A stretch of 64,000 nucleotides of DNA, from the NCBI GenBank assembly GCA_019359725.1, contig JAHHGR010000012.1:1-64000 (forward strand). The letters run 5' to 3'. The notes under the pieces were generated by a model. The model was given only the letters and a program-made list of their open reading frames with translations. It searched no databases and was not told where the DNA came from. This stretch comes from Aphanocapsa lilacina HA4352-LM1. Lineage in GTDB: Bacteria; Cyanobacteriota; Cyanobacteriia; Gloeobacterales; Gloeobacteraceae. Of the stretch, positions 11,655 to 30,537 are shown piece after piece. The position numbers were made by a program, and so were the translations under genes. The number at the start of each line of letters is the position of its first letter. Position 1 is the first letter of the stretch.

Positions 11655-12421
11655 TTCCCCCGCTATCGGTAGCCGGCCCGGCGGAGCTGACCGGAGCCCT
11701 CGCACAGAGCTACCGCCGCTGGGGGGGCGAAGTCCGGGTGCTTGAAAATGCGTCGTTACCGGTTCTCGAACCGGCCGGTCGGATCATTTGGCTGGCGCGG
11801 CCGGATAGCGCCTCGCCCGCTACCGCCCTCTTCGAGCGCTGCGCCGACCTGGCACCTGCTGAAGTACCCCTCACCTTGCCCGACAGTACGGCTGCTTTCC
11901 TGGTTCTGCCGCTGGTGCTCACGGCGCGGGGGGTGCTCTACGCCGAGGCGATCGGCATGGCAGGGAGATATCTTTGGCAGCCCGAGCCGCTCTCCGACAA
12001 AGCGCGCCAGATTCTCTACCGCTTTGCCCGCGGCCTCATCGATCTGTCGGAGCCGCTTCCCCCAGGCGTTTACATGGTCTACTTCGCGGTGGTCTGCGGC
12101 GCTGTGCGCTTCGAGAAACTGACTGCCCATCCCGATCGAACGGCCCTGGTGACCCTGACCAGCCAGCGGCCGGATCTGTTTTGCTGCCACTGGCGCTGTG
12201 CCCTCGGCCTACCGGTGGTCGACCTGCAAGTGCACCGTCCGACCGCTGCGGCCTTTGTCGGCGACTGGCCGGACGATTTGCCGCTGCGCGCGGCCCTGGA
12301 GCCCGAAGCGTCGCTCGATGCCGCCGCGGGCCTGGTGCTGGTGCAGGCTCCCACCCTCCAGCAGGCGCGCGGCGGAGTGCAGACCCTCCTGGGCGAGACG
12401 GATGTGGATGCCGGTCGGTAG
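11651..12421 (+). CDS. hypothetical protein
   Basis: 256 residues, no signal peptide or membrane helix. A segment LPPGVYMVYFAVVCGAVRF vaguely recalls the ATP-grasp fold of PurK-like enzymes, but the metal and ATP residues of that family are not evident, so no function is assigned. Two adjacent cysteines occur in DLFCCHWRCALGLP. It is translationally coupled to the upstream coiled-coil gene by an ATGA overlap and ends 36 bases before the DUF885 gene. Confidence 0.55.
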   Translation: MIPPLSVAGPAELTGALAQSYRRWGGEVRVLENASLPVLEPAGRIIWLARPDSASPATALFERCADLAPAEVPLTLPDSTAAFLVLPLVLTARGVLYAEAIGMAGRYLWQPEPLSDKARQILYRFARGLIDLSEPLPPGVYMVYFAVVCGAVRFEKLTAHPDRTALVTLTSQRPDLFCCHWRCALGLPVVDLQVHRPTAAAFVGDWPDDLPLRAALEPEASLDAAAGLVLVQAPTLQQARGGVQTLLGETDVDAGR

Positions 12422-12457
12422 AATCGGCAGGTTTCGTCGAGCGATTTAGGGTTATCG

Positions 12458-14329
12458 ATGTTCTCTATGCTTTTGAAGCGCCGTACCGTACTTGCCGCCG
12501 CCGGTTGCTGGCTTGCCGCCCGTCAGGTCCGGGCCGCCCCGACGGCGGAGCGCGACACCCGGGCGCAAACGCTTTTCGAGGCGATTCTGGCCGAGGGTTT
12601 CGCAAGCGATCCGGTGGGTGCCACCGCGGTAGGAGAGCACCGCTACGACGATCGCTGGCCGGATGTGAGTTCCCTGGGTCGGGAGCGCGACCGCGAACGC
12701 ATCCGCACTGCCCTGGCCCGGCTTGCCGCCTTCGGGCGTCAGGATCTGTCGATTGATACCCGCATCGATTTCGACTCGCTGGTGGGTAGCCTCGAACTGG
12801 CCCGCTTCACCGACCAGATCGAGGCGCCCTGGCTGCATAACCCCCTCTACTACACCGGCAACATCGGCACCGGCCTCGACGAACTGGTCAGCCGCGAATT
12901 TGCCCCAGCCGGGGTGCGTGCCGCGAGCGTCGCCGCCCGTCTTGAGAAGCTGCCCGGTTTCGTGGAAGAGGCAATCACCAATCTGCGCCGAGGTAAGCCC
13001 CTCGCTCCCCACTCGCGCGTGGCGGTGGGCCAACTGGCCGGAACGCTTCTATTGATTCAAAAAGAGATCCCCGACAAGCTCAAAAATGCTTCCCCGGCTT
13101 TGCGCCGCCGCATCGCCGCCGCCACCCCCGCCGCTGTTGCCGCCGTCGAGAAGCTGCGATCCGTAGTCCAGAACGAACTGCTGCCGGGGCCAAGTGAGAA
13201 CTGGCGCCTGGGCCGCACCAACTTTGAGCGCAAGCTCCGGCTCACCCTGGAGACGAACCTGGGGGCCGACGCAGTCTATGCCCTCGCCCGGCAAGAGCAT
13301 GAGCGGGTGCGTGCGCGCATGGCGAGTCTGGCGCGCGAGTTGTTCGTGCCGCTGTTCGGTGCGGCGGCACTCAAGACCCTCGAAGCCAGCCCGGAGGCGG
13401 ACGAGCGCATTATTCGGCGCGTGCTTGCAGAACTGGCCACTGACCACGTCCGTGCCGAAGACCTGCGCGCCGCCTGTGAGAGCAACCTCGAACGGCTTAG
13501 CGCCTTTGTGCGCGAGCGCAAGCTGGTGCCCCTCGACGGGCAGGCGATACTCAAAGTGATCTGGACGCCGCCCCAGCAACGGGGGGTAGCAATCGCCGGT
13601 CTGGCCGCTCCTGCTCCCCTCGACGCCGACAAACCGGGATTGCCGAGTTTTTATCTTGTCCAGCCGGTGCCCGAGGACTGGACACCCGAGCGGCGCGAAT
13701 CCTTCCTGCGCGAATACAACAACTTTATGCTCGAAATTCTCTCGATCCACGAGGCGATCCCCGGCCATTTCGTCCAGGGCTACTACGCCAAGCGTGTCCC
13801 GTCGAAGGTGCGCAAGGTGAACGCCAACGGCCCCTTTGTCGAGGGCTGGGCGGTTTACACCGAGCATGTGATGGTCGAGGCGGGCTACGGCGGGCCGGAC
13901 CCCGGTAAAGACAAACCCGCAGGTCTCACAGACGCGCTGTGGCGCATCAAGCAAGATCCGGCCCTCAGGGCAAAGGCCATCGCCCTGCACGGTCAAAAGT
14001 TCTATCTGCGCACCGTCACCAACGCGATCCTCGATCATGCCATCCACGCCGGGACGATGGGCGAAGAGGAAGCCGTGGCGCTGATGGTCGATCGCTCCTT
14101 CCAGCAGGAGGGAGAAGCACGGGCCAAGTGGGTGCGCGCCCAGGTAAGTTCCACGCAGCTAAGCACTTACTTCGTGGGAGCCCAGGCTTGGTTTCGATTG
14201 CGTGAGGAAGCAGAAACACGGGCCAAAGCCAGAAACGAACCCTTCGATCTGATGGATTTCCACGCCCAGGCCCTCGCCCACGGCGCTCCCCCGGTCAGCC
14301 GCCTGCCCGAATTGATGGGCTGGAATTAG
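12458..14329 (+). CDS. exported DUF885 metallopeptidase-like protein
   Basis: 623 residues of the DUF885 family. The signature HEAIPGH lies at residues 431-437 and the downstream acid sits in FVEGWAVYTEH (Glu462), a gluzincin-like zinc-site arrangement. The N-terminus LLKRRTVLAAAGCWLAARQVRA looks like a Tat-type signal peptide (paired arginines, hydrophobic stretch, Ala-x-Ala end), so the protein is probably exported folded. Substrate is unknown. A long hairpin sits 17 bases after the stop codon. Confidence 0.85.
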   Translation: MFSMLLKRRTVLAAAGCWLAARQVRAAPTAERDTRAQTLFEAILAEGFASDPVGATAVGEHRYDDRWPDVSSLGRERDRERIRTALARLAAFGRQDLSIDTRIDFDSLVGSLELARFTDQIEAPWLHNPLYYTGNIGTGLDELVSREFAPAGVRAASVAARLEKLPGFVEEAITNLRRGKPLAPHSRVAVGQLAGTLLLIQKEIPDKLKNASPALRRRIAAATPAAVAAVEKLRSVVQNELLPGPSENWRLGRTNFERKLRLTLETNLGADAVYALARQEHERVRARMASLARELFVPLFGAAALKTLEASPEADERIIRRVLAELATDHVRAEDLRAACESNLERLSAFVRERKLVPLDGQAILKVIWTPPQQRGVAIAGLAAPAPLDADKPGLPSFYLVQPVPEDWTPERRESFLREYNNFMLEILSIHEAIPGHFVQGYYAKRVPSKVRKVNANGPFVEGWAVYTEHVMVEAGYGGPDPGKDKPAGLTDALWRIKQDPALRAKAIALHGQKFYLRTVTNAILDHAIHAGTMGEEEAVALMVDRSFQQEGEARAKWVRAQVSSTQLSTYFVGAQAWFRLREEAETRAKARNEPFDLMDFHAQALAHGAPPVSRLPELMGWN

Positions 14330-14345
14330 CCGTGGTTTACCAAAA

Positions 14346-14389
14346 CGGGCTGATATCCCCGTGCTTCAGCACTGGGGGATATCAGCCCG
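14346..14389. repeat. long perfect hairpin (15-bp arms with nested stem)
   Basis: Arms CGGGCTGATATCCCC at 14346-14360 and its exact reverse complement at 14375-14389. The loop contains a second stem GTGC-TTCA-GCAC. There is no T run, so it is not a classic intrinsic terminator. The inner CCCCGTGCTTCAGCAC motif resembles the subterminal hairpins of IS200/IS605-type elements; with an IS630 remnant just downstream, a mobile-element end is plausible. Confidence 0.75.
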
Positions 14390-14456
14390 GCGAGCCGGTA
14401 GGCGAGCAAGCTTAATCCTATGGCCCAGGGCTGTATGGTAAGTCTAAGTAGACGGG

Positions 14457-17285: not shown

Positions 17286-18667
17286 TTGCTGGATTTGCCC
17301 CCAAGGCGCACCCCAACCACCGGCCGATGGCCCGGCTCGACCGATAGTCGGCAGAGCCGTTTGCACTTCATCGACCTTTGTCACAGGAAACACCAAACCT
17401 CCCAGGGAGCGGTGGTGCACAAGACCGACCAGCTCAACTTGAGCGGGCTCACCGGCGCGGGCATTACCGTGGGGGTTCTCTCGGACAGCTTCAACACCAA
17501 CACTACAGCCAGCACCCGCGCCCCGGACGATACAGCCGCGGCCGTTATGTGGCCTCCCGCAGCGGTATTGCCAACAACTTCTCGACCAACCAGCCGCTGG
17601 AAATTCCGGCAAGCGACCTTGCCGCCGGTCAAACCTACCGGATTGTCATTGCCAAAAGCAGCGCCACCCGCGCCCCCGGCGTACCCCAGCAGGCAAGCCG
17701 CCTGCGCTATGTCGTCTTCGGGGGCACTTACACCGGTGAATTCAACGACGCCCCCGGCACCTTCGTGGCAACCTACGGCCACAACTCGGCCCTCAACGGC
17801 AATGGGGGTCGCCGCCTACGTCTACGACGACACCTTCGGGGCGCCGCCCTTCAACCCGGTCTTAGAAGACTTTTCATCCCCCGGCCCGGTCACCATCGCC
17901 TTCGACAAAGCGGGCAACCGCCTCACCACCCCCGAGGTGCGCAACAAACCCGACTTTGCCGCGGCCGATGGCGTCAACACCACCTTCTTTCCGCCCGGGC
18001 CGCTCAGCAGCACCGACGTCGAGGGGGACGGCTTTCCAAACTTCTTCGGCACCAGTGCCGCCGCTCCCCACGCCGCCGGGATCGCCGCCTTGCTGCTGCA
18101 AAAAGCGGGCGGTCCCAATTCGCTGAGTGCGGCGGCAATCCGCACGGCCCTGCAGAGCACCGCCCCGCCCCGCGATATCGACCCGCTCTTTGCCGCCGCG
18201 GGTGCAGGGGTGGTGGGCGTCACCGGCAACGGCGCCGGCAGTACCGATGCCAATTTCTTTCGCATCGTCCTGGCGTCACCCTCCCCGCCCTTACCATCAA
18301 TCTTGCTCCGGCGGGCCTCATCTTCGACCCGAGCGCCAGCGGCGGCTTCCCGCTCACCACCGGCACCAGGACCGGCACCACCCTCCCCGCCATCACCTCC
18401 GCCGGACCGAGTGCGCCCACCGCAACGCTCACCCTCACCTTCACAAGCTTCGACTCCGGCGACACCCTCAACTTCGGCATCGAGCGGGATCTGGCCACCG
18501 GCGGCTTCGGTAACTCCGCCGACGCCCTGGCCGGAGCAACCTTCACCGCCACAACCTCCACGGGCACCCTGAGCGGCACATTTATCAATACTGTTTTCAG
18601 TGGCTACTCGCCCTTCGACGGCTTCGGTTTCATCGACGCCCAGGCGGCGGCTGATTCGCTTCCTTAG
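17286..18667 (+). pseudogene. subtilisin-like (S8) serine protease remnant
   Basis: Pieces of one subtilase alternate between two frames. Frame one carries GLTGAGITVGVLSDSFNT (region of the catalytic Asp) near 17.44 kb; frame two carries about 17.54-17.80 kb (ASDLAAGQTYRIVIAKSS); frame one returns for 17.81-18.27 kb with the catalytic-Ser motif GTSAAAPHAAGIAALLL; frame two finishes to 18667. At least three frame changes are needed, one at a G5 run near 17806. The His-containing HGT block is missing, which implies an internal deletion. Inactive as read. Confidence 0.85.
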
Positions 18668-18804
18668 TCCAGCGCCCGGCTGCCGAGGAGCATCCGCTGC
18701 TTCGCAGTCCGATTCCAATTTTCCGAATTTTTTCGTACTTCTTTTATCTCAAAAAGTGCACCTCAGGTAGAGTATGGATGCTCTCCCCTACCAAGGAGGT
18801 CAGT

Positions 18805-20040
18805 GTGAGGAGCCCCTTCCCCTTCTATCGTCGCGCAGAAATTGTCGAACTTTTTTCGACCTATTTGAGTTGGAATATGGGTCGTCCGGCGGGCTGGATC
18901 GCCGATGCCCAGTTGCAATTGAGTATCGAACATTCCCTCAGCCGCCTTGCCCAGGCGGATGCCTCCCGGCGCTTCTGGGTGCTGTACTGGCATCGCATCT
19001 GGCAGGACGACCAGACCGTCGGCGCTGAGGCGCGCCGCCTGGCGGCGCGCCACCTGTGCGCCTATTTGCAGGAAGCCTGTTACCGGGCGGCCCGCCGGGC
19101 CAGTACCCGCTTTACCAGTACCCGTTTTGAAGTGTTCGATTTGTTTCAGATCGGCATGCTCAAGTGCGACCGGGTTTTGCGCGGTTTTCAGCCGGAACGC
19201 GGCGACAGTCTCGACAATTATGCTACTTCGGTCTTCCACAGCATCATCGGCGAAGCGCTGCGCCAGCATCAAGAAGCCGACATCAGCTCGCCCTGGGCGC
19301 TGTTGCGGCGGGTCACCCAGCGGTTTTTAAGCGCGTCGCTGGGGCAGGTACCCTACGATGCACGCACCATCCGCTGTTATGTGCTCGCCTGGATCTGCTT
19401 TCGTGAACTGTACTGCCCGGCGCCCCGGCGCGATTCCGCCCGGCTCGCAGACCCGGATTCGGCCACCTGGCAGAGCGTCTGCGCCCTGTACCACCGCGAA
19501 AGCATCGGCCAGGGCCTTGCCGCCGGACCGCCGCCCACCCCGCAACTGATCGAGCAATGGCTGCGCCAGTGTGCGGTGGCTGTCCGCGCAGCGCTCGTTC
19601 CGGATGTCCGTTCGCTGGGGGGTGCGCCTGGGGACGGCACCGCCCTCGACCGGCTGGAGACGCTGCCCGTCGTGCAGCAACCGTCCGAATTCGAGCGACT
19701 GATCGCCCAGGAGCAAGAACAGGAGCGCGAGGCGTTGCACGAACGGCTCAACGCGCTTTTGGGCGAGGCCATCATCCAGGTGCAGGCGCAGGCCGACCGG
19801 GATCTGCTGCAGTTGTACTACCAGGGTGGGACGACCCAGAGCGAGATTGGCGAGCGCTTCGGTATCAGGCAATGGACGGTTCACCGCCGCCTCAAGCGCC
19901 TCAAGGCGCAATTGCTCGAACAGCTGGCCCCGCGCTGCGCGCAGGTTCTGCATAGGCCGCTTTCGCTCGCCCTACTCGAAGCTATAGGCACAGTCCTGGA
20001 GGAGTGGTTGCAGGCTTACCACGGCGACCGCTGCGAATAA
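18805..20040 (+). CDS. sigma-70-like RNA polymerase sigma factor
   Basis: 411 residues from GTG 18805, which follows a perfect AAGGAGGT by four bases; an in-frame ATG at 18778 lies upstream of that site and is less likely. A region-2-like segment is visible around FEVFDLFQIGMLKCDRVLRG (residues 105-125). A helix-turn-helix of region 4 type, GTTQSEIGERFGIRQWTVHR, lies near residues 340-360. The linker between them is unusually long. It heads a six-gene cluster with DUF1822, PAS, caspase-WD40, DUF928 and TPR-CHAT genes; DUF1822 and sigma genes are typical neighbours in cyanobacteria. Probably directs a dedicated promoter set; its targets are unknown. Confidence 0.8.
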   Translation: MRSPFPFYRRAEIVELFSTYLSWNMGRPAGWIADAQLQLSIEHSLSRLAQADASRRFWVLYWHRIWQDDQTVGAEARRLAARHLCAYLQEACYRAARRASTRFTSTRFEVFDLFQIGMLKCDRVLRGFQPERGDSLDNYATSVFHSIIGEALRQHQEADISSPWALLRRVTQRFLSASLGQVPYDARTIRCYVLAWICFRELYCPAPRRDSARLADPDSATWQSVCALYHRESIGQGLAAGPPPTPQLIEQWLRQCAVAVRAALVPDVRSLGGAPGDGTALDRLETLPVVQQPSEFERLIAQEQEQEREALHERLNALLGEAIIQVQAQADRDLLQLYYQGGTTQSEIGERFGIRQWTVHRRLKRLKAQLLEQLAPRCAQVLHRPLSLALLEAIGTVLEEWLQAYHGDRCE

Positions 20041-20108
20041 GCGCAGCGGTCCTTGCCCTCGCCATCGACGCCCCTTTGTCCGCGGACTCTCTCACTTTCG
20101 TCGTACCC

Positions 20109-21266
20109 ATGGATTCAAACGACCTCTGGCTTGAAATCTCTGAAGTTGGGCGCGAAGCCGCCCGCCAGCGTGCCGAGCCGCTCGGCGCCCCGGCGGCGGT
20201 CTGGCGGGCTTACCTGGGGAGCCTGGCGCTGGCAGGTGTGCAGGACTGGCTGTGCGAGGCGGGCTGTGTAGCTCGAATCTGGCCGGGGGAGGCGGCTTTG
20301 CCAAGTTTCTGGCCATGGGTGGCGGGGACGGCCCTCGCCGTCGGCGAGCGGCGGCTGCTGGTGGTTGCAGGCGAAGCATCGATGGCTGACGAACTGCGCG
20401 TGCCGCAGGAGTGGATAGATATTCCCGGCTGGGCGGCGGATTATTACCTGGCCGCCCAGGTGGAGCCGGAGGCGGGAGCGGTGCAGCTGTGGGGGTTTAT
20501 CAGCCACCGCCACCTCAAGGAAGTGGCCGTTTACGATGCTCAGTGCCGTCAGTACTGCCTGCTCGCAGGCAATCTAGTGCGGGAGGTGGCCTGTCTGCCG
20601 GCCGCTCTGCACCTCGAACTGGCGGAGCCGACCCGCGCCCCGCTCGCCGCCCTGCCGACCGTGCCGCTGGGCCAGGCCCGGCAGTTGCTGGCCCGGCTGG
20701 GTGACCCGGCCCTCCCGATGCCCCAGTGGACGGTACCGTTTGGCCTGTGGGGGGCGCTGATAGCCCACGGCGGCTGGCGGCAAAAGCTGTACGAGCTGCG
20801 TCTGGGCCTGCCTGAACAGCGCTCGGTACCCGACTGGATCCAAGCGGGTGTCAGCCCACTGGGCGAACTCGCAGGCTGGCGGCGCTGGCGGCTTCGGGCC
20901 GAACCGGGGGGCACCCGTGCCCGCGGCCGCCCGCGCGGGGGGCCGCCCGTGGGCATGCTGCTCACGCGCCGTCTGCGCATCGCCGGAGCAGACTACGAGC
21001 TGCAACTGCAACCTGTCGAATCGCCGCACGGCAACGTCTGGCGATTCGAACTGCAGGCGGCTGAAGTCGGCGAACCTGTGCCGCCCGGCTTCGTGCTGCG
21101 CCTTTTGGCCGAAGACCTGCAGGGATTTGCCAACAACGAAGACAGTGCCGAGCAACCCGTCGAGCGGCTGTACGTCGAAGTGGCCGTCGACCTGGGCGAC
21201 ACCCTCACCTGGGAAATCGAGCCGGAGCCGGAAGGTTTTGACCGGGAGATTTTGCGGTTGGCTTGA
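20109..21266 (+). CDS. DUF1822 family protein
   Basis: 385 residues. The family hallmark is the block EWIDIPGWAADYYLAAQVEP near residue 100 followed by LWGFISHRHLKE and a later segment with a Tyr/Cys-rich turn. No signal peptide or membrane helix, so cytoplasmic. Start is uncertain: the ATG at 20109 has no clear ribosome-binding site, while in-frame TTG 20076 and GTG 20004 would add SLTFVVP, a strand that resembles the beginning of other DUF1822 proteins and would overlap the sigma gene. Function unknown. Position right behind a sigma factor suggests a regulator of it, by inference. Confidence 0.78.
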   Translation: MDSNDLWLEISEVGREAARQRAEPLGAPAAVWRAYLGSLALAGVQDWLCEAGCVARIWPGEAALPSFWPWVAGTALAVGERRLLVVAGEASMADELRVPQEWIDIPGWAADYYLAAQVEPEAGAVQLWGFISHRHLKEVAVYDAQCRQYCLLAGNLVREVACLPAALHLELAEPTRAPLAALPTVPLGQARQLLARLGDPALPMPQWTVPFGLWGALIAHGGWRQKLYELRLGLPEQRSVPDWIQAGVSPLGELAGWRRWRLRAEPGGTRARGRPRGGPPVGMLLTRRLRIAGADYELQLQPVESPHGNVWRFELQAAEVGEPVPPGFVLRLLAEDLQGFANNEDSAEQPVERLYVEVAVDLGDTLTWEIEPEPEGFDREILRLA

Positions 21267-21389
21267 GTGCTCCCGCCGCTTGCACCGATGGCAAATATGT
21301 AAAAAATTGTGGCCGAGATCCGCCCAAAGGTTCGGCTCAAATCGATTTTCCGGCACCAAATTCCATCTGAATACGTAGCCGCCAGGTGG

Positions 21390-21419
21390 CATTGATGGCT
21401 ATCAATGACGCTAGGAGGT
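21390..21419 (+). promoter_or_regulatory. hairpin just before a strong Shine-Dalgarno
   Basis: Inverted repeat CATTGAT-GGCT-ATCAATG (7-bp arms, 4-base loop) is followed six bases later by AGGAGGT, the ribosome-binding site of the PAS gene. It could be an operator or a 5'-UTR element that controls access to the ribosome-binding site. Confidence 0.5.
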
Positions 21420-21429
21420 AAGTTCACCA

Positions 21430-21840
21430 ATGTTCGACGACTGGCGCATGCGATATCTTCTTGAATGTTTACCACAAATTGCCTGGACTGCGAGAGCAAA
21501 CGGTGCTCTCGATTGTTGCAACAAGCGAGCCCTGGACTACACGGGCATGAGCACGGAGCAGCTGCAGGGTTGGGGATGGAAGGCGGTTGTCCACCCGAAG
21601 GATCTGCCCAGTTGTCTACAGCGTGGGTACAAAGCTACGCGCAACGGCGAATCGTACGCCATGGAATATCGGCTGCGCGCCGGCGATGGGAATTATCGAT
21701 GGCACCTGATGCAGGTGCAGCCGATCCGCAACGCCGAGGGCCGGATTGCTCAGTGGTTTGGCACCTGTACCGATATCGACGCCTACCAGTCCTGCATCCG
21801 GCCTGCACCCGACAGCGAGAGCGGACCGCACAAAAGCTAG
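21430..21840 (+). CDS. stand-alone PAS domain protein
   Basis: 136 residues that consist almost entirely of one PAS/PAC module: LLECLPQIAWTARANGALDC, then LDYTGMSTEQLQGWGWKAVV, HPKDLPSC and the PAC strand pair YRLRAGDGNYRWHLMQVQP. No kinase, cyclase or HTH output domain is attached, so it must act by binding a partner or as a small sensor. The ATG follows AGGAGGT by ten bases, predicting strong translation. It sits between DUF1822 and the giant caspase gene in a co-directional cluster. Cofactor cannot be told from sequence. Confidence 0.85.
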   Translation: MFDDWRMRYLLECLPQIAWTARANGALDCCNKRALDYTGMSTEQLQGWGWKAVVHPKDLPSCLQRGYKATRNGESYAMEYRLRAGDGNYRWHLMQVQPIRNAEGRIAQWFGTCTDIDAYQSCIRPAPDSESGPHKS

Positions 21841-21852
21841 GACCGCTTTTTT
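21820..21852 (+). terminator. possible terminator or attenuator after the PAS gene
   Basis: AGCGG (21820-21824) pairs with CCGCT (21843-21847), followed by T6. An overlapping alternative pairs GCACAAAAGC with GCTTTTTTGTGC. The mutually exclusive stems resemble an attenuator, placed between PAS and the caspase gene. It would reduce rather than abolish read-through. Confidence 0.5.
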
Positions 21853-21947
21853 GTGCATAGATGTTCTAGGGTTACCCCTACAAGCAGGCAGAGTCGGCGT
21901 CGGCAAGGCCCGGGCGATGCTGCGCCGAAGGTACGAGGGGAGAAGCG

Positions 21948-24900
21948 ATGCCGCCGTTGGGTCTGCGCACCAGCCGAGACGACCGTCTGCTGCACGCGGC
22001 GGTGGGAAGGCTCTGGATGCTGATGGTCGGCGTCGATATCTACGCAGATCCGCAACTGGGAGTGCTGGGGTGCGCCGTCTGCGATTGTCGGGAACTGGCC
22101 GGGGCCCTGGCCGGGCTCACCGGCCGCTTCGAGCGGCGCGTGGAATTGGTGCACCACGCGCAGGACGGACGACCGCCGCGGCTGGGGGCGGTGCGCGCCA
22201 GTCTGGCGCAACTGGTCGCTGAGGCACAGCCGGAGGACACGGTGGTGTTTTATTTTTCCGGCCACGGCGTGCTCGACCGGCGCTGCACCGAAGTGTTCTT
22301 TTGTCTGGCCGATACGCGCCTGGGCGCTCTGGAGCAGACTGCCCTGGGACTGCCGGAGTTGCTGGGGTCCCTGGCCAATTGCCGTGCCCATCAGCAGCTG
22401 CTCTGGCTGGATGCCTGCCACAGCGGCGCCGGGTTCGCCCCGGCCGGGGCGAACCCGGCCGACGATGCGGCAGGCCGGCTGGTGGCGGCTCTGCAGCGGC
22501 ATGCCCACCAGCGGCGCAATCTCTACGCGCTGCTTTCGTGCGACGCGGGCGAGCACTCGTGGGAGTTTCCCGAACTGGGCCACGGCGTATTCACCTACCA
22601 TCTCATCCGCGGTCTGCGCGGCGAAGCGGCGGACCGCCAGGGTGTGATCGATATCGACGGCCTGTACAAATTCGTCTACTACCAGACCCTGCGCTATATC
22701 GATCAGATCAACAAACAGTTGCGCCTGTTGAACCGCCAAAAAGGCTGCCTGGGCGAGAGCGAGCGCTTTCGGCTCTATTCTCTACAGACACCCAAGCGCT
22801 TTGTCGGCGGGGTGGCCCCGGTGGTGCTCGGCCGCTCGCCGCGGGCGGCAGGGGCTCCGCAGCCTCGCCGGGCGCTGGTGATCGAATCGCTGGTCGGTCG
22901 AGGCGTGGGCGTGAAACTCAGCCGCGAACTGGCCCGCCTCGGTCGCTTCGACATCCGCTATTGGTCCGCTGAATCCGTCCCCAGGCAGTGGCTGGCCCTG
23001 CAGCTGGCCGATCCACCGGTGGCGCAGACGGTGCTGGTTTACCTGGGGGGGCGCATCACCTGCACTGGAGACGGGGATCTGCATCTGGATCTCGGTGGCA
23101 CCGCCGTGGGTCTGTTGTGGCTGGACCAGCAGATGCAGGCGGGGCACCGCGACCGGCGCCTCTGGATTTGCGACTGGGTTGTGGAGCCTGGGAACCTGGA
23201 AGCGGTGCGCCGCTGGCTACAAAGCCAGCAGCGGCCGCAAACCCCTGGCTTGTGCCTGATGGCCGGGTTGTCGGCGCCTGGCTTCGCCGGGCGCTTTGGG
23301 GAGGCGCTGGTGGCCACCCTGGCCGCCGCCGGGGCCGGATTGAGCGTTGCTGAATGGATAGCCAAGTTGCAGGACCAGACTGCCGCAGACGCCACGCACT
23401 TCGAAAGCTGGCTTTCTTCGGTCGAGGGAGTCGTCGAGGTTCTCCCCGGTGACCCGGCGGCACCTTTTGACGTCAAGATTTGCCCTTATATGGGGCTAAG
23501 GGCCTTCGCAGAGGCAGCGGCCCCATTTTTTTACGGGCGCGGGCCGCTCGTGGCCCGGCTGCTCCATGCACTGCACGAGCGGTCGTTTGTGGCGGTGGTT
23601 GGCGCGAGCGGCTGCGGAAAATCGTCGCTGGTGCAGGCGGGGTTGATGGCGCAGCTGCGGCAGGGGGGCATGATTCCGGGCAGCGGGCGCTGGCGCCTTT
23701 GCACGATGCAGCCGGGAACCCACCCGCTCGCGAATCTGATCGCACGGCTGGGGGAGTCGGGGGCGCCGGACGCCGGCGGGCCGGATCGCCGGGAGTTGGA
23801 GGGGTTGGTGTACCTGGGGGCGGAGGGGTTTGTCCGCTGGCTGCGCACCCGGCCGGAGCCGGTGCTGGTGCTGGTGATCGACCAATTCGAGGAGCTTTTG
23901 ACCCTCAGTGCCGCCCTGGAGTGCGACCGATTTATCGAACTGGTGCTCGGGGCTTTAGAACATGCGCCCGACCGCTTCAAGCTGGTGATTACGCTGCGGG
24001 CGGACTGTGCCGAGGGCGCTTTGCGGTTGCGGGGGTTGCACCGGCTGCTGGAGCGCTCGGTGGTCTACCTGTCCGCAGAACTCAGCCAGGCCGACTACCG
24101 TGACATCATCCTCAAACCGGCCGCCCAGGTCGGCCTGCAGGTAGAGCCGGAACTGGTGGAGGTGCTGCTGCGGGATCTCGAGCGCAGCCGCGGCGAACTG
24201 GCGCTGCTCGAATTTGTCCTGGAGCAGTTGTGGGAGCGGCGCGCGGGCGGTTGGCTCACTCTGCGGGCCTACCGGCAGCAGATAGGCGGCATCGAAGGCG
24301 CCCTGGAGCGCAAAGCCGAGGAGGTTTTCGGCGCGCTCTGCCCCCAGGCGCGCGCCTGCGCCCACTGGCTTTTTCTGTCGCTCACCCAGTTGGGAGAAGG
24401 CATGCCCGACACCCGCAGGCGGGTACGCAAGGCGGATCTGCTGGTGCCGCGCTATGGCCCGGCTCTGGTCGAACATACGCTCAAAGCCTTCAGCGACGCG
24501 CGTTTGATTGTGATTGGCGCCGAGGAAAACAGGGGTCAGGCCGCCGGTACCGGCAGCGGACGCGGCGCCGCTGCCGACGATGAAGTCGCCGGGGCCATCG
24601 AGCAGTTGCACGCCGAGGTGACCGTGGAGGTCGCCCACGAGGTGCTGATCCGCAACTGGTCGACTTTGCGCTGGTGGCTTGAGGAGAACCGCGCCCGATT
24701 GCGGGTGCAGCGGCAGATCGAGCAGGCGGCGCACCTGTGGTTGCAAAGCGGCCGCAGCGACGAATTTTTACTCAGCGGCGCGCGGCTGGCCGAGGCTGAG
24801 GAGTTGCACCAGGGCTGTGCCGACGAGCTGACCGCCACCAGCAACCGCTTTATCGAGGCGGGCCTGGCGCAGCGGGCAGCCCTGCAGCACCGCCAACAAC

Positions 24901-26993
24901 GCGCGCTGGTGCGCACCAGGCTGGCGGCCGGGGCGATGGGAGCCCTGGCGCTGGTGGTGGCGGTGTTGGGCGGTGTGCTCTTCAAGCTCGTGGGCGACCT
25001 CCAACACAACGAGATCGCCACCCATACCGCCTACGCCCGCAGCTTTTTGAGCACCCACCGCGGGCCGGAGGGTCTGCAGGCCGCCCTGCGGGCCGGCAGA
25101 CAGCAGTTGCAGGCCCTGTCCGCCGACACCGGGCAGACCCGCCAGACAGAAAGCATCCTGCGCGAAGCGCTCAGCACCGTTCAGCAATGGAATCGCATCG
25201 AGCATCCGCAGTGGGTGACAAGCGTCGCCTTCAGTCCCGGCGCGGCGTTGCTGGCGAGCGGCAGCGTCGATGGGCAGGTGCGGCTGTGGCGTCCCGACGG
25301 CACCCTGGTGCGCAAGATAGCGACGCTCGCCGGCAGCGCCGCTCACAAACCCAACCTTCAGGTGCGCTTCAGCCCCGACGGCGGGTTACTGGCGGTGGCC
25401 CGCGACGACGGCATCGTGGCGCTGCAGCGGTCCGAGGGCGGACCGGTGGTGAGGCTGCGCCATCCGCGCGGCGTCTACGACGTGCGCTTCTCGCCCGGGG
25501 AGGCGACCCTGGCCACCGCCAGCTCCGACGGTTGTGTGCGCGTGTGGAGCGTCGAAGGCCGGTTGCTGCGGACCCTGGCCGATCCCGGCAATCCGGTATT
25601 TGCCCTGGCCTTCAGTCCCGACGGCGACTTGATTGCCGCCGCCTCGGCCGACGGCGCCATCCGACTGTGGCGGCGCGACGGCCGCCTGGGCGCCACGCTG
25701 CGCGGTCACCGCGACTGGGCGCTGGCGGTGGCTGTCAGTCCCGATGGGCGCGTCATCGCCTCTGGCGATCGCACCGGGGCGGTCAGGCTCTGGAGCCGGG
25801 AAGGCCATGCGCTCAAATCCCTGCGCGGCCACAGCGAAGCCGTCTTTGCGGTCGCCTTCAGCCCGGACGGTGCGCTTCTGGCCACCGCCGGCTTCGACCG
25901 CACCGTGCGGCTGTGGCGGCCCGACGGCACTCCCGCCGGGGTGCTGCAGGGCCATAGTTCCGACATCACCTCCCTCAGCTTTGGCGGCGACGGCCAGACC
26001 CTCGCCACCGCCAGCCTCGACCGCACCGTGCGGCTGTGGCGTCTGCAGCCGCCCCTGCGCCGAACCCTTTATGGCCACACCGACGGGGTACTGAGCGCCC
26101 GCTTCAGCCCGGATGGAGCGCTTGTAGCCAGTGCGGGCGACGATCGGACAATTCGCCTGTGGAGTCGCGACGGCAAGCCGCTGGCAATCCTGCGCGGCCA
26201 CGCGCAGGCGGTGCTCGATGTCGCCTTCAGTCCCAGGGGCGATAGCCTCGCCACAGGCGGCGGCGACGGCACGGTGCGGCTATGGCGGCGCGACGGCACC
26301 GCCCTCGGGCAGTTGAGCGGGCACACCGGCCCGGTGCACTCGCTGCGCTACAGCCCCGACGGACACCTCCTCGCCACCGCGGGCGAGACCGTTCGCCTCT
26401 GGAATGCGCAGGGGGCATTGCAGCCCGCCTTTGGAGGCACGCCAGGAGGTGTGCTCGATGTCGCCTTCAGCCCCAGGGGCGATCGCCTCGCCACAGGCGG
26501 CGGCGACGGCACGGTGCGGCTATGGCGGCGCGACGGCACCGCCCTCGGGCAGTTGAGCGGGCACACCGGCCCGGTGCACTCGCTGCGCTACAGCCCCGAC
26601 GGACACCTCCTCGCCACCGCGGGCGAGGAGGGCATGGTGCGGATTTGGGAGACCGACGGCCGTCTGCGGCAGAGCTGGGCCGCCCACGCAGACTGGATCG
26701 ACGCGCTCGCCTTCAGCCCCGACGGCCGCACCCTCGCCACCGCCGGGCACGATCGCCTGGTCAAGCTGTGGAGTCTTGACGGGACGCTGCTCAAAGTGCT
26801 CGAGGGGCACGCTGCCCCGGTGACGAGCGTCGGATTCAGCCCCGACAGCCGGACGGTGATTTCTGCAGGACTCGACAAAACTGTGTTGCTCTGGGATGAT
26901 TGGCAGCTCGATGTGGCGGGCCTTGTCGCCCGCGGCTGCAATTGGCTTGCAGCCGGTCCCGACAACACGCCCAACCGCCGGTGCAAATATTGA
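21948..26993 (+). CDS. caspase (C14) - STAND ATPase - TM - WD40 protein
   Basis: 1,681 residues. Residues 20-290 form a caspase-like C14 domain with the catalytic dyad visible as His106 (FYFSGHG) and Cys157 (LDACHSG). A STAND-type NTPase follows: Walker A GASGCGKSS at 552-560 and Walker B VLVLVIDQFEELL at 639-651 with Asp645. A hydrophobic helix at about 992-1012 (LAAGAMGALALVVAVLGGVL) is the only likely membrane span. From about residue 1085 to the end the chain is WD40 repeats, around fourteen FSPDG-type units, enough for two propellers. Start ATG 21948 follows GAGGGGAGAAG. Two neighbouring WD repeats are a nearly exact recent duplication. As in known orthocaspases, the enzyme probably cleaves after Arg/Lys; WD40 and STAND parts suggest signal-triggered oligomerisation. 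Confidence 0.9.
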   Translation: MPPLGLRTSRDDRLLHAAVGRLWMLMVGVDIYADPQLGVLGCAVCDCRELAGALAGLTGRFERRVELVHHAQDGRPPRLGAVRASLAQLVAEAQPEDTVVFYFSGHGVLDRRCTEVFFCLADTRLGALEQTALGLPELLGSLANCRAHQQLLWLDACHSGAGFAPAGANPADDAAGRLVAALQRHAHQRRNLYALLSCDAGEHSWEFPELGHGVFTYHLIRGLRGEAADRQGVIDIDGLYKFVYYQTLRYIDQINKQLRLLNRQKGCLGESERFRLYSLQTPKRFVGGVAPVVLGRSPRAAGAPQPRRALVIESLVGRGVGVKLSRELARLGRFDIRYWSAESVPRQWLALQLADPPVAQTVLVYLGGRITCTGDGDLHLDLGGTAVGLLWLDQQMQAGHRDRRLWICDWVVEPGNLEAVRRWLQSQQRPQTPGLCLMAGLSAPGFAGRFGEALVATLAAAGAGLSVAEWIAKLQDQTAADATHFESWLSSVEGVVEVLPGDPAAPFDVKICPYMGLRAFAEAAAPFFYGRGPLVARLLHALHERSFVAVVGASGCGKSSLVQAGLMAQLRQGGMIPGSGRWRLCTMQPGTHPLANLIARLGESGAPDAGGPDRRELEGLVYLGAEGFVRWLRTRPEPVLVLVIDQFEELLTLSAALECDRFIELVLGALEHAPDRFKLVITLRADCAEGALRLRGLHRLLERSVVYLSAELSQADYRDIILKPAAQVGLQVEPELVEVLLRDLERSRGELALLEFVLEQLWERRAGGWLTLRAYRQQIGGIEGALERKAEEVFGALCPQARACAHWLFLSLTQLGEGMPDTRRRVRKADLLVPRYGPALVEHTLKAFSDARLIVIGAEENRGQAAGTGSGRGAAADDEVAGAIEQLHAEVTVEVAHEVLIRNWSTLRWWLEENRARLRVQRQIEQAAHLWLQSGRSDEFLLSGARLAEAEELHQGCADELTATSNRFIEAGLAQRAALQHRQQRALVRTRLAAGAMGALALVVAVLGGVLFKLVGDLQHNEIATHTAYARSFLSTHRGPEGLQAALRAGRQQLQALSADTGQTRQTESILREALSTVQQWNRIEHPQWVTSVAFSPGAALLASGSVDGQVRLWRPDGTLVRKIATLAGSAAHKPNLQVRFSPDGGLLAVARDDGIVALQRSEGGPVVRLRHPRGVYDVRFSPGEATLATASSDGCVRVWSVEGRLLRTLADPGNPVFALAFSPDGDLIAAASADGAIRLWRRDGRLGATLRGHRDWALAVAVSPDGRVIASGDRTGAVRLWSREGHALKSLRGHSEAVFAVAFSPDGALLATAGFDRTVRLWRPDGTPAGVLQGHSSDITSLSFGGDGQTLATASLDRTVRLWRLQPPLRRTLYGHTDGVLSARFSPDGALVASAGDDRTIRLWSRDGKPLAILRGHAQAVLDVAFSPRGDSLATGGGDGTVRLWRRDGTALGQLSGHTGPVHSLRYSPDGHLLATAGETVRLWNAQGALQPAFGGTPGGVLDVAFSPRGDRLATGGGDGTVRLWRRDGTALGQLSGHTGPVHSLRYSPDGHLLATAGEEGMVRIWETDGRLRQSWAAHADWIDALAFSPDGRTLATAGHDRLVKLWSLDGTLLKVLEGHAAPVTSVGFSPDSRTVISAGLDKTVLLWDDWQLDVAGLVARGCNWLAAGPDNTPNRRCKY
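26211..26387 (+). repeat. WD40 duplication, copy 1
   Basis: 177 bases that recur 240 bases downstream with only two differences seen (26231 and 26244). It encodes a WD40 unit from VLDVAFSPRG to LLATAGE. Confidence 0.9.
26451..26627 (+). repeat. WD40 duplication, copy 2
   Basis: Second copy of the 177-base WD40 segment, offset by exactly 240 bases (80 codons), so the frame is kept. The near identity, including silent positions, shows a recent duplication or gene conversion in the propeller. Confidence 0.9.
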
Positions 26994-27030
26994 TCAGTTG
27001 CCTGTGCCGAACTGGAGCCAAAGACCGCCT

Positions 27031-27888
27031 ATGCCCATACTGCTTTATCGACTTGCCTGGGCCCTGCTCGTGATGAGCATGGCCTGGCGAGGGTGGGCAG
27101 CGCCTGCGGCGGCCGGGGAAGCGCCAAAAACTCCCCCACCCGCCAGGCCCCACCCTGGCGAGCGCCCGGTGCAAAAACCGGCCGCGCCGGGTCAGAACTT
27201 CTTCAAGCTCGTGCGCACGCGCGATCGCCGCCTGCCGGCGCAGCGGGTCAGGCAACTGCGCTCGGCGGGATGCGATCTACCGGTGCCGGCACCGCTGACT
27301 GCCCTGGTGCCCAGAAGTTCGCCCGGCTTGACCCAGGCTACCCATCCCACCTTCCTCTGGCACCTGCCGACCCTGGGCGCCTCCGCCCCGCCGGTGCTGT
27401 TTACCCTGGAATCGCGCGAGGGACACATTCTCTATCGGACCCACCTGGACCCCCACGGTCTTGCCCCCGGCGTCGTCGCCCTCGCGCTGCCGTCCGGGGT
27501 GCCGCCGCTGGCCCCCGGCCGGGATTACCACTGGTCGGTGACGCTGCTGTGCGATCCAGACGATCCTTCGGCCAACCTGACGGTGGATGCCTGGGTCAGC
27601 CGGGTTGTGCCGAGTGTTGCCTGGAGACGGCGGCTGGAGCAGGCCCCACCGGCGGAACGAACCGCTTTGCTGGCCGAGGACGGCTACTGGTACGATCTGC
27701 TGCCTGAACTGACGGCGCTGCACCGCACCGCAACCGGTGCACCACTTGCTGCCGGGCGCTGGCAATCGCTGCTGCGCTCCGAGGGACTCGATGTGATCGC
27801 CAATGCCCTGCCCATACCGACGTTTGCAGGGATCTCGCAATTTCCGGTGGCCTTGAACCAAATTTCTGTTCCGAACGTCCGACCCTAG
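27031..27888 (+). CDS. exported DUF928 family protein
   Basis: 285 residues from ATG 27031. A signal peptide (LLYRLAWALLVMSMAWRGWA, then APAAAG) leads into a Pro-rich linker and the DUF928 body: LTQATHPTFLWHLP, FTLESREGHILYRTHL, LAPGRDYHWSVTLLCDPDD and WVSRVVP. The body looks like an all-beta domain with two cysteines. In cyanobacteria DUF928 genes sit next to CHAT-TPR, DUF1822 and sigma genes, as here. It starts 37 bases after the caspase gene and ends 39 before the CHAT gene. Periplasmic by its signal; biochemical role unknown. An in-frame start at 26896 would overlap the caspase gene and is rejected. Confidence 0.82.
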   Translation: MPILLYRLAWALLVMSMAWRGWAAPAAAGEAPKTPPPARPHPGERPVQKPAAPGQNFFKLVRTRDRRLPAQRVRQLRSAGCDLPVPAPLTALVPRSSPGLTQATHPTFLWHLPTLGASAPPVLFTLESREGHILYRTHLDPHGLAPGVVALALPSGVPPLAPGRDYHWSVTLLCDPDDPSANLTVDAWVSRVVPSVAWRRRLEQAPPAERTALLAEDGYWYDLLPELTALHRTATGAPLAAGRWQSLLRSEGLDVIANALPIPTFAGISQFPVALNQISVPNVRP

Positions 27889-27927
27889 ACCCGAGGGTTC
27901 ATCTGTTTCCCTCCTGCGCCCTGAACT

Positions 27928-30537
27928 ATGGCCGCATCCGAGTATCAGCCGCCCCGTCGGCTTGCAAGAGGGCTGGCGGCGCTGGCGGCGGCGCTGCTGC
28001 TGGTGAGCTGTCCCGGAGCACTTTTCGCCCAGGCCCAGCCTGCGGCCGAAGCGGACCGCCTGAGCGCTCAAATCCGATCGTTGCAGGCGGCCGGGCGGTT
28101 TGCAGAGGCGATCGTTCTCGGTCGGCGGCGGCTGGAATTGCTGGAGCAGACGCTTGGAGCGGAGCATCCGCAGGTGGCCGACAGCCTCAATAACCTGGCC
28201 GTGTTGCACGGGGTGCAGGGCGATTACGCCGAGGCGGAGGCTTTGTTCGAGCGGACGCTCGCCCTGCGCGAGCGCGCCTTTGGCCCGACGCACCCGCTGG
28301 TCGCCAAGGGTCTCTATGGTCTGGCGATGCTCTACGGGGCGCGCGGCAACCTCACCGAAGCGCAACCGCTCGCCGAACGGGCCCTGGCCATCCGCCGCCA
28401 GACCCTGGGTGCGGACCACCCGCAGGTGGCCAAGAGCCTGCACGGCCTGGCGATGCTGCTGATGGCCCGCGGCGCCGGCGATACGGCGGCAGAAGGGTAT
28501 TTTCTGGAGGCGCTGGCGGTCTGGAAGAAAACCCTGGGCGCGGAGCACCCGGAGGCGGCCCGCAGTCTGCACGGTCTCGCGATGCTGTGCCGGTTGCGGG
28601 GCGAAGTCGAGCGTGCAGAGGCGCTGTTCTTGCGCGTCCGGGCCATCTGGGAAAAAGCCTACGGTCCGGATCACCCGGATGTGGCGCGCAGTCTGCACAG
28701 CCTGGCCGGGCTCTACCTCGATCAAGGTCGCCTGGACGAGGCGGAACCGCTGTTTCGCCGCGCCTTTGCCGTTCGCGAAGCCTCGCTCGGGGCGAACCAC
28801 CCCGGCCTGGCCCAGTCGCTGCAGGGTTTGGCACAGCTCGCGGTCCGCCAGGGGGAGCCCGAGCGCGCCAGAACGTTGATTGCCCGCGCCCTTGAGATCC
28901 AGGAGCACAATCTGGCGGATTCGCTCGCCGCGGGTTCAGAACGCCACAAGCGCGATTACTTGCAGGTTCTGACCGCTGCCACCGACACGGCCATCTCGCT
29001 GCACCTGCGTTCTTCCCCCGCCGATCCTGCCGCCGCCCGGCTGGCCTTCGCCACCGTCCTGCGGCGCAAGGGCCGTATCCTCGATGTCCAGAGCGGCAGC
29101 CTCGCGGCATTGCGCGCGCACCTTGCCCCAGCCGACCAGGTGCTTCTCGACCAATGGACTGCCGCCCGCACGCGGCTTGCCACCCTGGCTTTCGGGGTTC
29201 TGGGCGAGGACGCACCGGTGTCCGCCGCCACCGGCGGGTCGCAATCTTTGCAGCGCGAAGCCGAACGCTTCGAAGCCGCCCTCAGCCGCCGCAGCGCCGA
29301 ATTTGTCGCCCTTTCTGCTCCGGCTGACCCGCAGTCGGTACAAAGGCAGATTCCAGGCGCGACTGTCCTGGTGGAACTGATGCTCTACCGGCCACTTAAC
29401 TTGCAGGCCACCCGCTTCAGTGAGCAGTTCGCCGCGCCGCGTTACGCGGCCTACCTGTTCGATGGGCGCGGCGCACTGGACTGGGTGGATCTAGGCGAGG
29501 CCCAGGCGATCGACGCGACAGTCCAGGTCTTTCGCAATGCCGTGCGCAACAGCGCCCTGCCGACAGCTGAACTCAAAGCCGCCGCCCGCCGGCTCGACCG
29601 AGTGCTGATGGAGCCGGTGCGCGCTAAACTCGGCGGGCGGCGAAGGCTGCTGGTCTCCCCCGACGGGGCGCTCAATTTGATCCCCTTTGCGGCTCTGGTA
29701 GATGAGCAGGGTCGATTTCTGGTGGAACGCTTTACCATCCAGTATCTGGGTTCCGGCCGGGATCTGCTGCGGCTGGCTCGCCCGGCCGGTCTTCGACGCC
29801 CACCGCTGTTGATGGCCGATCCGGATTTTGACCGGGCGGGTGCCGTTGTCGATCGCCTCGCTGCGGCGGGCAACATCGAAACGCGGGCGGGAAAGTTTGA
29901 TGCACTCGGTTTTGCGGCGCTCCCTGCCACCGCCAAAGAAGTCGCGGCCCTTGCCGAACTGCTGCCGGACGCACAGGTGCTCACCCAGGCGGCGGCCACC
30001 GAAAGCGCCCTCAAGCGCTCGTCCGGCCCAAGCATTCTGCACATTGCCACCCACGGCTTCTTTTTGCGCCCGACTGCCCAGGCGCAAAATCCACTGTTGC
30101 GCTCGGGGCTGGCCCTGGCGGGGGTGAATGTCCGTAAAAGCGGCGGTGATGACGGTGTGCTCACCGCCCTGGAGATGGCCGGGCTCGACTTGCGCGGAAC
30201 CCGACTTGCCGTGCTCTCCGCTTGCGAGACGGGACTTGGGGATGTCGAAAGCGGTGAGGGCGTCTATGGTCTGCGGCGTGCCCTGACCCTGGCGGGAGCC
30301 GCAAGTCAGCTGGTGAGCCTCTGGCGGGTGGAGGACGCCACGATCAGGGATCTGATGGTCGGTTTCTATGGAGAATTGCGCGCCGGGGCAGGCAGTGGCG
30401 ATGCGTTGCGCCGGGTGCAACTGACCATGCTGCGCAGCCGCCATTACCGCCATCCCTACTACTGGTCGGCATTCATCCCTTCCGGGGACTGGCGGCCCCT
30501 TGCTGAATTGTTTGCGCGGCCGGGGCGGCGTCCTTGA
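27928..30537 (+). CDS. exported TPR-CHAT protease
   Basis: 869 residues. The N-terminus has a signal sequence (LAALAAALLLVSCPGALFAQ); LVSC ending at Cys28 fits a lipobox, so it may be a lipoprotein, though signal peptidase I cleavage after AQA is also possible. About six kinesin-light-chain-type TPRs of 42 residues cover roughly 75-330 (for example HPQVADSLNNLAVLHGVQGD). The C-terminal CHAT domain carries the clan-CD dyad His709 (HIATHGFF) and Cys766 (SACETGLG), followed by GVYGLRRALTLAGA. It closes the cluster with the caspase and sigma genes. Substrate unknown. Confidence 0.9.
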   Translation: MAASEYQPPRRLARGLAALAAALLLVSCPGALFAQAQPAAEADRLSAQIRSLQAAGRFAEAIVLGRRRLELLEQTLGAEHPQVADSLNNLAVLHGVQGDYAEAEALFERTLALRERAFGPTHPLVAKGLYGLAMLYGARGNLTEAQPLAERALAIRRQTLGADHPQVAKSLHGLAMLLMARGAGDTAAEGYFLEALAVWKKTLGAEHPEAARSLHGLAMLCRLRGEVERAEALFLRVRAIWEKAYGPDHPDVARSLHSLAGLYLDQGRLDEAEPLFRRAFAVREASLGANHPGLAQSLQGLAQLAVRQGEPERARTLIARALEIQEHNLADSLAAGSERHKRDYLQVLTAATDTAISLHLRSSPADPAAARLAFATVLRRKGRILDVQSGSLAALRAHLAPADQVLLDQWTAARTRLATLAFGVLGEDAPVSAATGGSQSLQREAERFEAALSRRSAEFVALSAPADPQSVQRQIPGATVLVELMLYRPLNLQATRFSEQFAAPRYAAYLFDGRGALDWVDLGEAQAIDATVQVFRNAVRNSALPTAELKAAARRLDRVLMEPVRAKLGGRRRLLVSPDGALNLIPFAALVDEQGRFLVERFTIQYLGSGRDLLRLARPAGLRRPPLLMADPDFDRAGAVVDRLAAAGNIETRAGKFDALGFAALPATAKEVAALAELLPDAQVLTQAAATESALKRSSGPSILHIATHGFFLRPTAQAQNPLLRSGLALAGVNVRKSGGDDGVLTALEMAGLDLRGTRLAVLSACETGLGDVESGEGVYGLRRALTLAGAASQLVSLWRVEDATIRDLMVGFYGELRAGAGSGDALRRVQLTMLRSRHYRHPYYWSAFIPSGDWRPLAELFARPGRRP

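Follow-up and report, generated by a model that had tools for sequence, protein, structure and literature searches.

The six-gene locus

The window analysed here is a 64,000-nucleotide stretch of the cyanobacterium Aphanocapsa lilacina HA4352-LM1 (assembly GCA_019359725.1, contig JAHHGR010000012.1, positions 1 to 64,000). At positions 18805-30537 it carries six co-directional open reading frames (ORFs) on the + strand, encoding in order a sigma factor, a DUF1822 protein, a lone PAS domain, a giant caspase protein, a DUF928 protein and a TPR-CHAT protein. The best reading of the cluster is as a caspase-receptor variant of an association of sigma factor, DUF1822 and protease that is already published, with new elements in the evidence on DUF1822 and in the layout of the receptor. 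Its features are as follows.

18805..20040, +, sigma-70 family factor (TIGR02937, E 6e-36; Sigma70_r2 and Sigma70_r4 matches)
20109..21266, +, DUF1822 protein, predicted anti-sigma-like regulator (PF08852, E 1.6e-101; AlphaFold2 (AF2) model with predicted local distance difference test (pLDDT) score 87; adjacency to sigma; proteins of another class)
20916..20918, +, codon of DUF1822 Arg270, candidate cleavage site (conserved basic residue; pLDDT < 50 in the 265-280 loop)
21430..21840, +, lone PAS domain, accessory (PF08447, PAS_3, E 1.7e-15)
21948..26993, +, receptor protease of 1681 amino acids (aa), caspase-pseudocaspase-nSTAND1-transmembrane (TM)-WD40 (family matches, Foldseek, topology)
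22017..22679, +, caspase domain with His106 and Cys157 (NF047832 match, residues 24-244)
22788..23471, +, pseudocaspase domain, dyad lost (Foldseek, alignment, hhalign)
23484..24761, +, nSTAND1 NTPase domain (PF20703, E 1.6e-111)
24936..24992, +, single TM helix, basic on the STAND side (hydropathy and charge)
25188..26897, +, WD40 region, predicted extracytoplasmic (13 WD40 stretches; topology)
27031..27888, +, exported DUF928 protein (PF06051, E 3.2e-47; N-terminal hydrophobic signal)
27928..30537, +, exported TPR-CHAT protein with His709 and Cys766 (CHAT, E 6.8e-92; N-terminal signal)

The six genes are real and their reading frames are correct as called. ORFs and family matches confirmed an earlier note on this DNA, which had placed these families here in this order, and the two catalytic dyads that it named (His106/Cys157 and His709/Cys766) are exact to the residue. 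DUF928 and TPR-CHAT both have N-terminal hydrophobic signals, in agreement with its proposal that they are exported. The sigma factor is 411 aa long from the GTG at 18805, which has an AAGGAGG five bases upstream, or 420 aa from the ATG at 18778. Its matches to sigma regions 2 and 4 are widely separated (residues 99-165 and 339-374, in the 420-aa numbering). The gaps flanking the PAS gene are wide (163 and 107 nucleotides, nt), so a single operon is not certain; promoter and terminator scans were uninformative (two found vs 1.2 expected, and four found vs 8.3 expected). The source genome is a 4.2 Mb draft of 99 contigs, 95% complete. DUF1822 and DUF928 were each matched once in it and CHAT three times, and no second copy of the cluster was seen there.

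Conservation of the sigma-DUF1822 pair

The neighbourhood was compared in two sets of loci. Set 1 consists of 80 loci, up to 20 kb around DUF1822, plus the window (81 in total), picked roughly best first, with some skipped, among the matches listed, in a search where 135 of 194 genomes matched DUF1822. Set 2 consists of 80 loci, mostly Nostocales, obtained with one peptide pattern as the best 80 of 495. Both sets are biased to strong DUF1822 matches, and three DUF1822 proteins are common to them (L065/L171, L070/L203 and L071/L173). Genes were labelled with profiles grown from the window proteins and with an EACC2-type profile built from set-1 genes; one row of the alignment behind that profile lacks CHAT and is probably the chloride-channel-like protein of L082.

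The sigma-DUF1822 pair is conserved, unlike the full six-gene set. A sigma gene is the co-directional gene immediately 5' of DUF1822 at 54 of the 80 set-1 loci and 77 of the 79 set-2 loci with a gene there, and DUF1822 remains beside sigma at loci without a protease label. A mirror-tree comparison gave r 0.84 over all pairs (Mantel p 0.001) and r 0.59 over 24 within-genome pairs, with concordant nearest neighbours in 30/52 cases; this shows co-inheritance, not binding.

In contrast, the complete six-gene set was found only in the window, L045 and L049, all of one genus and with 93-95% DNA identity. At L051, of the same genus, sigma, DUF1822, the caspase giant and DUF928 are present, and neither PAS nor TPR-CHAT occurs within its 20 kb. 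The L051 sigma, DUF1822 and caspase genes are spaced by -3 and 4 nt (first-start ORFs); since no PAS gene lies between DUF1822 and caspase there, PAS is regarded as accessory. L048 and L050, further copies in the window's same-genus relatives, have a caspase giant nearby on the opposite strand. Among loci from the window's order, L046, L047, L052, L053, L055 and L056 have the sigma-DUF1822 pair without a labelled protease, and L054, L057 and L058 are fragments or partial matches. The co-occurrence anticipated by the earlier note thus held widely for the pair and not beyond same-genus relatives for the full set, and its view of the six genes as one conserved system was rejected. Against L045 and L049, the ratio of non-synonymous to synonymous substitution rates (dN/dS) was 0.11-0.50 for five of the six genes, and DUF928 protein identity was 87-89%.

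Some loci have other genes around the pair. At L099, L104-L107, L109, L113, L116, L118, L120 and L121, proteins of 213-259 aa are encoded directly 5' of DUF1822, in the usual sigma slot. These genes were not accepted as degenerate sigma factors, their likeness to sigma being weak and unproven (weak TIGR02937 match in 4/16 scanned neighbours; hhalign of 11 of them to sigma, prob 5), and they (12 co-directional) were excluded from the sigma counts. By eye, the genes 3' of DUF1822 in L060, L131, L147 and similar Nostocales loci are one for a membrane protein of 155-169 aa and one that is oxidoreductase-like. Directly 5' of sigma in the window lies a subtilisin-like gene (17286-18667, S8 type by eye) split over two reading frames, whose L049 counterpart is one open frame of 801 aa (11988-14393).

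Protease and DUF928 genes near DUF1822

Genes with a CHAT, EACC2-type or caspase label were found at 60/81 set-1 and 39/80 set-2 loci. Anywhere in set-1 loci, EACC2-type genes occur at 45/81 and CHAT-labelled genes at 27/81, against about four CHAT genes expected in this DNA (background of 665 CHAT genes per 234.8 Mb). An EACC2-type gene is directly 3' of DUF1822 and co-directional at 39/80 set-1 loci, a count that is partly circular because the EACC2 profile was built from set-1 genes. The 35 large unlabelled co-directional genes in this position in set 1 gave matches to CHAT (34), CHASE2 (24) and Peripla_BP_6 (periplasmic-binding; 7). This CHAT/CHASE2 pattern of the third slot was taken as the one described in section 9 of Kaur et al. 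2021 (PMC8195603). The third slot of the window holds a caspase with a different sensor.

DUF928 usually follows a protease gene and is about 25-fold enriched near DUF1822, which is a new observation. It was found at 28/81 set-1 and 18/80 set-2 loci, and none of these lacks an EACC2-type or caspase label. Of the 29 set-1 copies, 19 have an EACC2-type gene and four a caspase giant (L045, L049, L051 and the window) as their immediate co-directional 5' neighbour; in set 2, 18/19 have an EACC2-type gene there. The 29 copies in set-1 DNA compare with 1.2 expected from 186 genes in 43 genomes (234.8 Mb, rounded sizes); except for the window's own, the DUF928 and CHAT background genomes were selected for having DUF1822.

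DUF1822 N-domain proteins in another class

Genomes of 1.6-2.3 Mb from another class of the phylum, which we take to be Vampirovibrionia, encode proteins with the N-terminal part of DUF1822 (DUF1822-N). These genomes were picked for a DUF1822 match, with 3/38 matches under the family cut-off. The open frames are 323-1372 aa long, and the match in them is confined to the first 130-266 positions of the profile, with a best E of 6.8e-13 for PF08852; hhalign of two cyanobacterial DUF1822 alignments against these proteins gave prob 86 and 69 (E 5e-6 and 5e-5). From 28 loci fetched, 26 proteins were aligned, and L219 and L220, from a genome of another family, were dropped as weak matches.

An ECF-sized sigma gene (extracytoplasmic function; 186-200 aa) lies 13-107 nt after the DUF1822-N gene at 21/26 loci; L213 is cut short by the contig end, and no such gene was seen at L234, L236, L239 and L240. 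One TM segment is predicted in 23/26 proteins. The motif HxxxCxxC stands just past the DUF1822 part in six of the 26 (L215, L217, L228, L236, L237 and L239), four of them with the sigma gene, and a His 26 residues before it is invariant in all six. We take the H...HxxxCxxC spacing to be the ligand pattern of zinc anti-sigma factors. The zf-HC2 model matches 4/6 zinc-motif proteins (best E 7.7e-5, the first under the cut-off), and TonB_2-like ends were found in 4/5 scanned other-class proteins, one below the cut-off. Around region 4, the sigma family of one class matches that of the other (prob 97, E 4e-10).

This fusion and gene-neighbourhood evidence places DUF1822 in sigma regulation, and does not show which part of it binds sigma. 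Joining to a zinc anti-sigma-like motif and adjacency to sigma suggest that DUF1822 is probably a sigma regulator, which is new: no such role was found in the part of the open-access literature searched. The proposal of the earlier note that DUF1822 is a partner or inhibitor of the sigma factor gains support from these proteins and from the adjacency in both sets.

At L214-L218 and most of L221-L238 the unit consists of a DUF1822-N membrane protein, an ECF-sized sigma and then a large gene. The two large third genes that were scanned, those of L214 and L218, encode double zinc ribbon and TPR together with AAA matches; only L214 reaches a cut-off. A 412-aa protein at L220:8161-9399 has a weak DUF1822-N match and an HLLACATC motif; its genome, of 6.1 Mb, belongs to yet another family of the phylum.

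Architecture of the caspase receptor

Like an orthocaspase, the giant has a caspase domain with a His-Cys dyad. This domain matches NF047832 at 101 bits, under its 140-bit cut-off, and the dyad His106/Cys157 is invariant in 16/16 rows of the caspase alignment. Residues 281-508, which the earlier note left undescribed, form a second, dyad-less caspase fold. Their AF2 model (pLDDT 78) gave 43 Protein Data Bank (PDB) matches at E <= 0.001 with Foldseek. A plant and a yeast metacaspase come first (E 2.2e-6, prob 1.00), and almost all the rest are caspases. The SGHG and DACHSG of the first domain are replaced here by RGR- and LDC-like stretches (GGR and ICD in the window), which removes the dyad. 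By sequence alone the relation to the caspase domain is only suggestive (hhalign prob 46, E 2e-4). Because iterated profiles of the middle and caspase regions may be cross-contaminated, the pseudocaspase claim rests on alignment, hhalign and Foldseek.

One TM helix separates STAND and WD40 in the window giant. Of 25 caspase giants with STAND, the window's among them, 24 have such a helix after that domain, and the 25th is a fragment at a locus edge; 4-8 basic residues flank it on the N side vs 0-3 on the C side. The WD40 match starts after the helix in 21 of these giants; an extra, earlier WD40 call exists in L168 and L195, and no WD40 was called in L083. No TM helix was predicted in nine caspase-pseudocaspase proteins without STAND. 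The giant has a layout that is new: caspase, pseudocaspase, STAND, one TM helix and then WD40, the last of which is predicted, from hydropathy and charge only, to lie outside.

Within the WD40 region, a comparison with L049 showed that blocks at 26211-26627 have a near-identical second block (96% over 177 bases), which suggests that repeats were recently duplicated or converted; a tandem-repeat finder listed nothing at 25000-27000.

The DUF1822 protein and a candidate cut site

The AF2 model of the window DUF1822 has an alpha/beta part, a helical middle and a C-terminal beta-rich part. The published label of TPR protein is not supported, since no Pfam TPR match was found at E <= 0.01 and the modelled secondary structure is mixed and beta-rich at the C-terminus. 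An alignment of 158 DUF1822 proteins, comprising the window's own and those from both sets with a length of 280 aa or more, has R at position 270 in 144 proteins and K in 5 (R 141 and K 5 among 155 distinct ones). This position lies in residues 265-280, the only segment of at least three residues with pLDDT under 50, where the runner-up conserved column is Gly268 (96/158). Orthocaspases are described as cleaving after positively charged residues (abstract of PMC6426788), and Arg270 is a candidate caspase cut site.

Relation to known systems

The association of sigma factor, DUF1822 and a caspase-type protease is already published, in section 9 of PMC8195603, as EACC2-caspases with an ECF sigma and a variable C-terminus (Kaur et al. 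2021). The window is alike in having a caspase-superfamily protease with a variable C-terminal sensor region next to an ECF sigma and DUF1822. It differs in that its caspase is at the very N-terminus, followed by pseudocaspase and STAND-TM-WD40; judged by placement only, there is no EACC2 alpha+beta domain before the caspase, whose match starts at residue 24. Section 9 of that paper calls DUF1822 a TPR protein and does not state an anti-sigma role for it; its main text does not contain DUF928, and has "CHAT" only inside author names. The core of what the earlier note proposed was therefore already in print, and its interpretation as a whole is partly supported. In one Nostoc, DUF928 lies beside a CHASE2 sensor gene and WD40 genes and has been read as part of extracellular signalling (PMC5587647); no sigma or DUF1822 is linked to this cluster in the text seen.

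In the type III-E module, as described in PMC10028731 (Csx29-Csx30-CASP-sigma), a protease lies beside a sigma factor and a candidate sigma inhibitor, which is cut in a flexible loop. The window TPR-CHAT is exported and DUF1822 has no sequence match to a PDB chain at E <= 1. As far as these six proteins go, type III-E membership was rejected, since none of them matches type III-E and the sigma factor scored 17.9 bits with NF041236 vs a cut-off of 100. The parallel with Csx29 in the earlier note can therefore be kept for how the system might work, and not as kinship. The proteases of both systems presumably belong to clan CD.

In RseA- and RsiW-type pairs, an ECF sigma is released by proteolysis of a transmembrane zinc anti-sigma factor. 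Adjacent sigma and regulator genes are a shared trait, which the window DUF1822 gene also shows, and the other-class DUF1822-N proteins often have a TM segment and sometimes a zinc motif. The window DUF1822 differs in lacking both, and its proposed protease is a caspase.

Pseudo-orthocaspases, described in PMC6426788, have the same caspase fold without the His-Cys dyad, whereas the window pseudocaspase shares a single chain with the active-type caspase that precedes it; the main text of that paper contains neither "tandem" nor "two p20". The paper names cFLIP as an inactive partner of caspase-8.

A possible protease-gated sigma switch and its alternatives

From what was computed (gene order, domains, dyads, the TM position, the caspase-like model of the pseudocaspase and, in the other class, proteins that join DUF1822-N to a zinc motif), we infer a possible transmembrane, protease-gated sigma switch, a reading that we hold tentatively, somewhat short of calling it probable. 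The WD40 part would sense a ligand on the outer side of the cytoplasmic membrane, perhaps helped by exported DUF928 and TPR-CHAT. Across the single TM helix, the STAND NTPase would assemble and activate the cytoplasmic caspase, for which the pseudocaspase fused to it may serve as a built-in partner or regulator. Sigma would be held by DUF1822, encoded directly beside it and perhaps co-transcribed with the receptor, until active caspase cut DUF1822 and freed sigma, most likely after Arg270 in the loop between the helical middle and the C-terminal beta-rich part. TPR-CHAT would be an outer partner, because an exported protein could not reach cytoplasmic DUF1822. The division into inner and outer halves suggested by the earlier note is plausible from signals and topology.

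Several results weigh against this switch. The set-2 protease rate is low, with 41/80 loci without a protease label nearby, and only 6/79 set-2 loci have a co-directional EACC2-type gene directly 3' of DUF1822 vs 39/80 in set 1. The gap lengths around PAS leave room for more than one transcript. DUF1822 has no PDB sequence relative at E <= 1 and no fold match at E <= 0.001, and in the window it has no HxxxCxxC. Position 270 is in a badly modelled loop, is conserved also at loci without a nearby caspase and could serve binding instead; if it is a cut site, the protease sometimes acts from elsewhere, or the residue is otherwise used. In the other class, hmmscan gave DUF1822 in 3/5 proteins (the genome search matched all five genomes) and 20/26 proteins have no zinc motif. 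The zinc region gave no convincing anti-sigma match among PDB profiles: the best was a designed helical barrel (E 0.0026), followed at 0.06-0.44 by 3hug (taken here to be RslA), RsiW and DdvA. The DUF1822 helical middle was rejected as a zinc-less anti-sigma domain, since hhalign did not align it with the zinc region. Bacterial pseudo-orthocaspases, as separate proteins, are said most likely not to regulate active ones (PMC6426788).

One alternative is a conflict or defence-type system in the sense of Kaur et al. 2021, in which the caspase auto-processes, sigma provides one output and DUF1822 acts as a scaffold or as a partner of another kind, not as the substrate. Section 9 of PMC8195603 proposes autopeptidase activation and sigma output, and the third-slot sensor domains vary. 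PADLOC models for caspase (2.3e-12) and repeats (9.9e-42) match the giant, together with weak mads_3 and mads_8, and sigma has weak Csa3 and CARF3 matches. Against this account, no PADLOC model matches the other four proteins (DUF1822, PAS, DUF928 and TPR-CHAT) at E <= 0.01, the DUF1822 model shows no TPR repeats, and DUF1822 stays by sigma where a protease label is absent; we regard it as unlikely.

We give similarly little credence to an independent, general-use sigma-DUF1822 pair, to which the caspase receptor, DUF928 and TPR-CHAT would adjoin as a separate module in some genomes. The set-2 loci without protease label, the many Nostocales with a membrane protein and oxidoreductase-like gene 3' of DUF1822 instead, and the same-order pairs at L052, L053, L055 and L056 fit it, but the excess of EACC2-type and CHAT-labelled genes over the CHAT background in set 1 and the nearly overlapping L051 trio do not. 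A chance neighbourhood of unrelated genes would fit the confinement of the exact six-gene set to three same-genus genomes, but is very improbable: the counts of sigma next to DUF1822 in both sets already contradict it, and the DUF928 excess and the dN/dS values speak against it.

More broadly, and more doubtfully than the switch itself, DUF1822 may be a large sigma-regulator family of the cyanobacterial phylum, with an N-domain akin to that of membrane zinc anti-sigma-like proteins in the other class. In the window's class it would be a soluble substrate, cut at a conserved basic residue by CHAT or caspase membrane receptors with interchangeable sensors (CHASE2, periplasmic-binding and WD40), forming a modular relay from the outside to transcription. 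If the protease-gated switch is true, bacterial caspase and CHAT proteases would gain a defined substrate and output, with a testable residue and a testable complex. It would also give DUF1822 and DUF928 roles, and would tie WD40/STAND receptors to transcription, not only to cell death.

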